Source: a virus. From it: 64,000 nucleotides of DNA. Below are positions 44,923-46,835 of the stretch, piece by piece. The first letter of the stretch is position 1, and each line of letters opens with the position of its first letter. The notes under the pieces are model-generated. The model had not been told where the DNA came from and ran no database searches. It saw only the letters and a program-made list of their open reading frames with translations. The position numbers were made by a program, and so were the translations under genes. The DNA lies in the IMG/VR virus record IMGVR_UViG_3300042292_000421, positions 1 through 64,000 of that record. The stretch is one strand, 5' to 3'.

Positions 44923-45807
44923 ATGAATATTTATCAACCGTACACGTACCTAATTAAATTCCTCCCAACAAATCAAATCTATTATGGGGTTCGTTATGCT
45001 AAAAATTGTCACCCGTCTGATTTATTTGTTACTTATTTTACTTCATCAAATGAGATATGTAACTTATTACAAACATACGGTGTTGAAAACTTTAAATGTT
45101 ATATAAGAAAAACATTTAAAACATCAGAACAAGCAAGATTGTGGGAAAGTAAAGTTTTAAAACGTATAAACGCTGCTCAACATCCAAAATTCATTAACAA
45201 ATGCAATGGAAGTGCGCCATCGTCTGAAAAAGAAATACGTGATATTATTTTAAAAACATTTATATTAAAATATGGTGTAGACAATCCGTCAAAACACCCA
45301 GAGACTATTCAAAAAATAATCAATTATTGGAATAATTTATCAGAAACCGATAAAAATAAAATTAATAACAAACGAAGTAGCACCTGTTTAACACGATATA
45401 ACACATCTAATGTAATGAAAATACCTAGTGTTAAAGAAAAAGCAAAACAAACAAATATTGAAAAATATGGTGTTGTCTATGCAGGTATGCAGACTGTAAC
45501 TTGTCCATGGTGTAATAAAACTGGAGGTAAAACAGGTTTTGATGTTTTTCATTTTAATTATTGCAAGGATAATCCAAATAGAATAGTACGAATTCAAAAA
45601 ATCTATACATGTAATTATTGCAACTTTCAAAGTAAAAACAAATCAAATATGGATAGGTACCACTTTGAAAGTTGCAAATCTTCACCAACATACAAACAAA
45701 AACCTGTTATAAATTATATATGCCCACATTGCAATTTTTTAGGCACTGGTAAAAATAATATGACAAGATATCATTTTGATAATTGTAAAAGCAGAAAGGG
45801 GACCTAG
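44923..45807 (+). CDS. Free-standing GIY-YIG homing endonuclease with zinc fingers
   Basis: 294 aa. N-terminal PYTYLIKFLPTNQIYYGVRY is a GIY-YIG nuclease core (YLI...YYG), followed by the conserved WESKVL Glu helix, a spacer with KYGVDNPSKHP and RYNTSNVMKIPSVKEKA segments like NUMOD repeats, and three C-terminal zinc-finger-like units (CPWCN, CNYCN, CPHCN each with later H/C). It is on the opposite strand to pmoC and outside the intron, 17 bp from the pmoC stop. It is the obvious candidate for spreading the pmoC intron. Confidence 0.85.
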   Translation: MNIYQPYTYLIKFLPTNQIYYGVRYAKNCHPSDLFVTYFTSSNEICNLLQTYGVENFKCYIRKTFKTSEQARLWESKVLKRINAAQHPKFINKCNGSAPSSEKEIRDIILKTFILKYGVDNPSKHPETIQKIINYWNNLSETDKNKINNKRSSTCLTRYNTSNVMKIPSVKEKAKQTNIEKYGVVYAGMQTVTCPWCNKTGGKTGFDVFHFNYCKDNPNRIVRIQKIYTCNYCNFQSKNKSNMDRYHFESCKSSPTYKQKPVINYICPHCNFLGTGKNNMTRYHFDNCKSRKGT

Positions 45808-45818
45808 GTCCCCTTTCT
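45793..45818. terminator. Bidirectional terminator between endonuclease and pmoC
   Basis: Perfect palindrome with arms AGAAAGGGGACCT/AGGTCCCCTTTCT. The TAG stop of the endonuclease lies in its centre. Confidence 0.75.
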
Positions 45819-45824
45819 AATCAA

Positions 45825-46835
45825 TTAAGCTAAATCGCTTTTCAACAATTTAGATATTGCTTGTACTTCGATATTTACTACACCTAATACACCAAGTGCA
45901 GCCCATCCAAAAAATACAACATTATGTTCATATAAGGTCGTTACTCTTATACCGCTTGTTAAGCTGCTTATAGTTTCCTATAAGATCGGACTATATCTTT
46001 ATCCATTTCTGGATACTACCCATTTCCACTTACTTAAGTGTACTCCCTTTCGGGATAGTCTCTGAACCTTAAACTTATTACTAAGTTTCTTGGCTGCTGA
46101 TTGTCCTTTCGGATGTCCCAGCAATTAAAGTAGTTTTCATTATATTATTACTAATATAAGGAGCCTGTATTATTTTGACCCGTAATGTAAAGGGGCTACG
46201 AATAACTCCTCCATGAACCAGAAAGTATGTCCCCATTCGTTTAAGCCAACGTTTGGAAGAATCATGAAAGGTCCAATTACTGATACTAAGTATTGTAATG
46301 GCAAACCTTTTTGGTAGGTAGGCAAGCGTGTTTTAGCATATAAGAATGCAGAAACGCCTGTGATGATGTAAATAGGATAACTTAGATAAAACTCAATAAC
46401 ATGACTTGGTGTAAAGTCAGTGTCACGAACGATTGTTTGATGCCATGTACCATCTTGTTCTGTAAAGTATGAAGCACCGTAATAAATTGCGATACCATAC
46501 ATTACTAACCAAATCCAGTGTGTAAAGTGACGACGTAATTCTTCGCGTGGTGTAATTGACATTACTTTGCGATCGCGTGATTTCCAAATATAACCCCATA
46601 ATACAGAAGCAGTTAATACTTCAAGTACCATTTCAATATATAGGAAGTTCATCCAATATGTTTCAAACTCTGGTGCAAATGAGTCTAAACCAGCAGACCA
46701 TCCATAAACACCTTCATACCAACGAACCCACCCGTAAAACACTATATATAGTGCTGCACCTGCGAGCATAGCTGGTTTGTTCAAAAGTGAAGCTTCTTTA
46801 GCTTCTGCTTTTACCGTTTCAATTGTAGCTGACAT
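45825..46835 (-). CDS. pmoC: Particulate methane monooxygenase subunit C, split by a group I intron
   Basis: Exon 1 is 46178-46835 (219 codons plus one base), exon 2 is 45825-45919. Joining them restores [17 protein letters not shown] and a 250-aa protein, the normal PmoC length (~250-260). The start is MSATIETVK, 6 bp after AGGAGA; a TTG six codons upstream is less likely. Copper-site residues are all present: D128, H132 and H145 (QDGTWHQ and TPSHVIEF) and N199, H203 and H217 (LNEWGHTF and APLHYG). Transmembrane helices match bacterial PmoC throughout. pMMO oxidises methane to methanol in the intracytoplasmic membranes of methanotrophs; a phage copy could replace or supplement the host subunit. 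No pmoA or pmoB is in the window. Late and early promoters both lie upstream. Confidence 0.95.
45920..46177 (-). ncRNA. Group I self-splicing intron in pmoC (258 nt)
   Basis: Core elements occur in order on the minus strand: P (AATTGCTGGGA, 46116-46126), Q (AATCAGCAGCCAAG, 46089-46102), R (GTTCAGAGACTATCCC, 46052-46067) and S (AAGATATAGTCC, 45988-45999), as in T4 introns. The 5' exon ends in GGGT, which pairs with GCTC (46161-46164) to make P1 with the required U.G at the splice site. TACA (46166-46169) can pair with exon 2 TGTA for P10. The intron ends in G (45920). It has no internal ORF. Confidence 0.95.

Follow-up and report, generated by a model that had tools for sequence, protein, structure and literature searches.

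The stretch of DNA analysed here (the window) comprises 64,000 nt, positions 1 to 64,000 of the IMG/VR virus record IMGVR_UViG_3300042292_000421. It carries on its minus strand a phage pmoC gene (46835-45825) that is broken inside codon 220 by a group I intron devoid of open reading frames, together with a putative nuclease gene that ends 17 bp from the pmoC stop codon on the opposite strand (Table 1). Joining of the two exons regains a PmoC protein of 250 aa, and exon 1 by itself matches AmoC (Pfam PF04896) at 3.5e-111. The palindrome lying where both genes end is likely their shared terminator, and a near-identical copy is present in L013, a relative without the nuclease.

Table 1. Features of the split pmoC gene and the neighbouring nuclease gene, numbered from the first base of the window.
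Feature	Position	Strand	Remarks
Nuclease 5' leader	44850..44922	+	Copies with 75-98% identity precede several distinct GIY-YIG genes
Free-standing homing endonuclease gene, putative	44923..45807	+	294 aa; convergent with pmoC
GIY-YIG (SegE-like) catalytic domain, predicted	44923..45207	+	Residues 1-95; PF19835 below cut-off, and Foldseek
DUF7487-like region	45223..45483	+	Residues 101-187; PF24308, 5e-12
Three C2HC zinc-finger-like repeats	45502..45795	+	zf-H2C2_5, 1.7e-5, below its cut-off
Palindrome AGAAAGGGGACCTAGGTCCCCTTTCT	45793..45818		Nuclease stop codon inside; window and L013 sequence
pmoC exon 2, including stop codon	45825..45919	-	Splice join
ORF-less group I intron	45920..46177	-	258 nt; 3'-terminal G; inside codon 220
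pmoC exon 1	46178..46835	-	Codons 1-219 and first base of codon 220

The virus record as a whole is a fragment of 83,186 bases with phage-type genes, for instance one for an RNA ligase, and a search for the terminase marker PF03237 gave no match in it. Other features include two further GIY-YIG matches outside the window (67740-67994 and 71474-71626 of the same record), a permuted tmRNA at the window edge (63703-64000, 89.7 bits), seven tRNA genes at 54469-56222, and an ORF of 3835 aa at 21134-32641 near another of 2042 aa at 33326-39454.

The intron in the window has all the marks of a spliceable group I intron, and self-splicing is predicted from its sequence. Rfam model Intron_gpI (RF00028) matches positions 45967-46187 on the minus strand with 87.8 bits, the gathering score being 50, and our own covariance model gives the intron 222 bits, a score to be read with the window intron as part of the training set. 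A P1 helix of 4 bp pairs the exon motif GGGT with GCTC of the intron and places a U.G pair at the splice site, and a P10 helix of 7 bp pairs the start of exon 2 (TTGTATT) with AATACAG, in agreement with the boundary GGGT|TTG. Folding of the intron strand gave a z-score of -3.4, with an equally good fold in 0 of 200 shuffles.

Assignment of the neighbouring gene product to the GIY-YIG nucleases is weak by sequence and I-TevI-like by predicted fold, and cleavage activity is a prediction from both. The Pfam SegE_GIY-YIG family (PF19835) matches weakly (5e-4, 20.7 bits against a cut-off of 25), and PF01541, searched across the virus record, gave no match at this gene. Using Foldseek, the I-TevI catalytic domain (1mk0/1ln0) occupied ranks 1-3 of 143 with a probability of 1.00, the best E-value being 4.4e-3 and none falling below 0.001, for a model with a pLDDT of about 56-84 in this domain, a mean of 54, and poor quality beyond residue ~90. 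The catalytic residues, which were set by eye on I-TevI, are presumably Y9, Y20, R24, E75 and N92. Further along the protein, the DUF7487-like region is common to other phage nucleases (L099-L112), and the last finger-like repeat (CPHC..NMTRYHFDNCK) is also found in two of the other nuclease types located at pmoC, designated B and C. A leader-type repeat of ~80 nt (window 44850-44935) occurs twice in L022 and also in other phages. That the nuclease leader folds into a regulatory structure was considered and discarded, its z-score of -0.84 being no better than that of shuffled sequences.

Viral contigs were scanned for further pmoC genes; 80 of the 116 loci found were taken first and further loci were added later. 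The loci were reduced by a 360-nt stretch of pmoC to 63 distinct sequences, after removal of 12 loci that lack the DSFAPEF anchor (L039, L071, L196, L199, L341, L345, L347, L349, L358, L391, L392 and L394). Introns were found in 7 of the 63, at seven positions and with up to four per gene: in codon 220 (window and L003), in codon 205 (L011-type and, separately, L015-type), after codon 214 (L017), in codon 207 and after 224 (L040), after codon 45 (L042), and, in L041, after 202, in 207, after 214 and after 224. All the L041 introns lie within a single pmoC (1540-2612), and belong to two group I subfamilies; the exons lying between them measure 13, 23 and 30 nt. By pmoC type, introns occur in 7 of the 30 distinct sequences of Methylococcales type and in 0 of the 33 of alphaproteobacterial type. 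The mapped borders yield a full PmoC in the six sequences checked as well as in the window; the longest of the 13 mapped introns measures 258 nt, and the 3'-terminal G is missing only in intron 1 of L041.

These introns share a common fold, supported by both-sided changes in 46 of the 60 predicted pairs among 11 aligned introns. A covariance model (R1) built on eight of the 11 finds left-out introns (L011, L012, L015, L016 and L017) at 196-219 bits, and gave no match when searched against intronless pmoC loci. In L015 and L017, where Rfam reported no intron even at E 0.01, R1, built without either, scored 214 and 196 bits and set the borders at most 1 nt from those mapped by splicing.

The presence of the intron is coupled to that of a nuclease gene. 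Adjacency was defined as a distance within about 170 nt, so scoring the L074-type gene (305 nt) as not adjacent; the detection set consisted of 17 GIY-YIG proteins and would miss other kinds of nuclease, and the nuclease of L041 (= L379), whose alignment spanned exon 1 only, was entered by hand from inspection of the locus. A GIY-YIG gene adjoins pmoC in 6/7 intron-bearing versus 3/56 intronless distinct sequences (Fisher 8e-6), in 6/7 versus 2/23 within the Methylococcales type (p 3e-4), and in 6/7 versus 2/15 after clustering at 97% (p 0.002; truncated loci L027, L038, L039 and L068 removed, L071 not clustered), p-values that are optimistic because the sequences are related. The nucleases involved fall into four types: A in the window, B in L011 and L015, C in L041, and D in L040 and L042. 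Furthermore, the nuclease lies on the side of the gene nearer the intron: upstream in L042, and downstream, converging on pmoC, in the other five pairs, which have 3' introns.

Alternatively, the two could be neighbours by chance, the nuclease being an ordinary free-standing homing gene that follows the pmoC terminator and is aimed elsewhere, and the intron a separate and perhaps immobile passenger. Such an explanation would account for GIY-YIG genes that have this leader or tail at loci in which no intron of this kind was detected, for the nucleases beside intronless pmoC of the L022, L043 and L054 types, and for L017, in which the intron is present and a search with the GIY-YIG set found no nuclease nearby; it is at odds with the strong co-occurrence, with the position of the nuclease on the intron side, with the joint acquisition seen in L015 (see below) and with a second pairing in L086, and we consider it improbable. 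According to the earlier note, nuclease relatives with no link to pmoC would refute the pairing. A large family of them does exist, and of 31 relatives of the window nuclease (itself excluded), L086 alone is accompanied by such an intron; there, however, the nuclease adjoins another intron-split gene. In L086 (1147-3001), the window-family nuclease immediately precedes a glycosyltransferase-like gene interrupted by an intron that likewise belongs to the window family; this intron scores 167 bits with R1 and its splicing yields an open frame. This arrangement is likely, judging by its sequence, a second pair on a different gene.

Decayed copies were also encountered. In L391 (2366-3060), a pmoC pseudogene breaks off at codon 214 and runs into a short segment similar to the first bases of the L017 intron, after which comes the nuclease leader in reverse complement; the whole reads as a probable deletion relic of intron plus nuclease. 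In L040, a decayed second pmoC 3' end is located downstream of the nuclease (8398-8511), starting near the cluster of intron sites.

The acquisition of both elements can be followed in two sets of loci, L015/L016 and L008/L009/L010, which around pmoC are almost one and the same phage. L015, with intron and nuclease, is 99.2% identical to L008, with neither, over L015 positions 1-6615, up to the intron; beyond this point L015 has the intron, a 3' exon that matches at just 88%, a different terminator and a nuclease gene of 217 residues, and the match returns at 98.9% from L015 position 7767. This block is the sole large difference between the two in 12.4 kb, and comparison with L009 and L010 agrees. 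At its left edge, the first difference lies 3 nt from the exon end and the next one upstream more than 150 nt away. The block would represent one acquisition, as predicted for a conversion started by a nuclease, although plain recombination could leave a similar block. It is a footprint of a type B nuclease and of an intron in codon 205, and stands for a relative of the window, not for the window itself.

Ordinary homologous recombination between co-infecting phages, with a nuclease inactive on pmoC, may likewise have moved both elements together. We consider this improbable as well: on its left side, the block in L015 starts at the intron itself, and the same plan is repeated at loci with different nucleases. 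In its favour are the status of pmoC as an island of homology and the mosaic structure of exon 1 in the window and L011. In that comparison, exon 1 is 87-91% identical in nt 150-450, between stretches of 99%. L011 and the window are 92-100% identical over the 1.2 kb before pmoC, yet differ in the intron, in its site and in the core of the nuclease that fills the slot, a finding that counts in favour of a homing pair; the best-shared parts of the two nuclease genes are the leader and the last codons. That the two introns are one element shifted by ~42 nt was rejected, given that they are 72% identical only and belong to different subfamilies. The nearest syntenic intronless relative of the window, L013, has neither intron nor nuclease and keeps the palindrome; the breakpoints of the window itself are not mappable because L013 is only 83-87% identical.

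The split gene, the spliceable-looking intron, the GIY-YIG features of the adjacent gene, their joint presence or absence and the replacement of the block in relatives are all observed in the sequences, and in our judgment the intron and the neighbouring nuclease gene probably constitute a collaborative homing pair. From these observations we infer cleavage and its position, protection and splicing in vivo, as follows. The nuclease would cut the intronless pmoC of a co-infecting phage within a conserved stretch coding for 27 residues; repair of the break from the intron-bearing genome would copy the intron, the 3' exon and the nuclease gene together; the intron, by splitting the recognition site, would protect its own genome; and its removal from the RNA would allow PmoC to be made. 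The anatomy of the genes and the joint acquisition in relatives bear out the earlier note's proposal that, on a phage pmoC, an intron devoid of ORFs is paired with a free-standing nuclease of the GIY-YIG kind, and the comparison of related phages with and without the intron that it suggested reveals the coupling, both in the counts (6/7 versus 3/56) and between L015 and L008. Its further suggestion that homing spreads pmoC itself lacks support, since homing needs a pmoC already present in the recipient.

Host genes were also put forward as targets, for which we found no support. Host pmoC is uninterrupted in 80/80 loci (the best 80 of 347), the closest cellular genes being those of Methylococcales, with up to 94% amino-acid identity among the matches listed; AmoC is present in 266 of 301 Methylococcales genomes and unsplit in all among the matches listed. 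Around the insertion site, 5-13 of 40 nt differ between host pmoC and the window (median 7; best 80 of 347), compared with 4-12 of 40 nt for intronless phages (untruncated intronless loci L004-L043). Cleavage of host pmoC is neither supported nor excluded, because host sites differ about as much as those of intronless phages. Group I introns are rare in Methylococcales, with RF00028 matching 10 of the 301 genomes and R1 matching 7, the latter at 70 bits at best versus 196-219 for the left-out phage pmoC introns; the ten loci inspected, which come from seven genomes, contain no PmoC. A host origin of the introns was discarded on these few, low-scoring matches, none of them at PmoC in the ten loci.

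As to how the pair arose, one hypothesis (raised in PMC10448857, available in part) is nuclease turnover, in which each intron once encoded an internal nuclease that was later replaced by a free-standing gene. Several unrelated GIY-YIG types in the same slot would agree with such a replacement. Against it, the 13 mapped introns, all of at most 258 nt, offer hardly any space for the remains of a nuclease gene inside them; on balance we find it unlikely. Turnover is a matter of origin more than of what the pair does now, and it can hold alongside a homing pair. New pmoC sites may also have been colonised by reverse splicing directed by the intron guide, with the nuclease serving only for later spread, which is equally compatible with a homing pair and which we entertain tentatively as a minority view. 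It is suggested by similar introns at look-alike sites: those after codon 45 (L042) and codon 224 (L040 and L041) have in common the guide GCCG and the target CGGT|TGG, with 76-79% identity between them, and the window intron shares guide GCTC and target GGGT with intron 1 of L041, the two being 76% identical. Against it, the case is built from sequence comparison and the intron tree is poorly resolved inside subfamilies.

Together with the homing pair, a broader reading seems to us evenly balanced between being right and wrong: in phages of gammaproteobacterial methanotrophs, pmoC would be a modular homing island, with a slot for interchangeable GIY-YIG nucleases and a conserved 3' part in which homing and jumps to guide-matched sites have placed introns at as many as seven positions. 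Slot nucleases would combine a shared leader and a shared zinc-finger tail with exchangeable catalytic parts, the 3' end of the gene would evolve by nuclease-driven conversion between phages, and pmoC genes published as fragmented would be intact genes after splicing. Four fragmented pmoC genes have been described, in the pmoC-phages TP6_1, BML_3, BML_4 and LR_6; for LR_6, the pieces are separated by a non-coding region with low-level transcription, and the C-terminal piece is expressed less than the N-terminal one (PMC7674155, in part). Simple, efficient splicing would not predict this weaker signal from the C-terminal piece. We infer that the four genes contain such introns from their published description, no pmoC having been found in the GenBank phage collection; the word intron is absent from the main text of PMC7674155. 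Among the papers searched, none joined 'methane monooxygenase' with 'group I intron', and those on pmoC, introns and phages, including the available part of PMC13037316, do not appear to concern this arrangement. A phage pmoC that looks broken is probably intact after RNA splicing, suggesting a changed reading of the phage contribution to methane oxidation.

Several known systems resemble the pmoC pair in part. Free-standing GIY-YIG nucleases of the T4 SegE type share the N-terminal domain (PF19835, weak), with SEG-like relatives in phage records, whereas the window nuclease adds a DUF7487-like region and zinc fingers and is paired with an intron. In T3/T7-like phages and in the terminase of ICP1, the nuclease gene also lies beside, not inside, the split gene (PMC10448857, excerpts), but other genes and other nuclease families are involved. 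The intron endonuclease of PhiPA3 (PMC11620839, excerpts) is likewise linked to an intron and interferes with a relative infecting the same cell, something only predicted for pmoC; unlike the window nuclease it is intron-encoded, and the phage competition is a feature of PhiPA3. The closest parallel drawn by the earlier note, cyanophage S-PM2, for whose psbA and F-CphI collaborative homing was defined (PMC6083498; also PMC10448857 and PMC3984707; excerpts), does follow the same plan, with a phage metabolic gene interrupted by a group I intron and, next to it, a free-standing nuclease that cleaves the allele lacking the intron, the intron preventing self-cleavage (PMC6083498 and PMC5931967, excerpts). 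The motif of F-CphI is of the Endonuclease VII type, not GIY-YIG; pmoC, in turn, has several nuclease types and seven intron positions, and its pair is known from sequence alone. Collaborative homing is already known, and the pmoC case is an unusually rich one, offering within one gene a natural series (neither element, nuclease only, intron only, both, and relics of both) that makes it a test bed for how collaborative homing arises.
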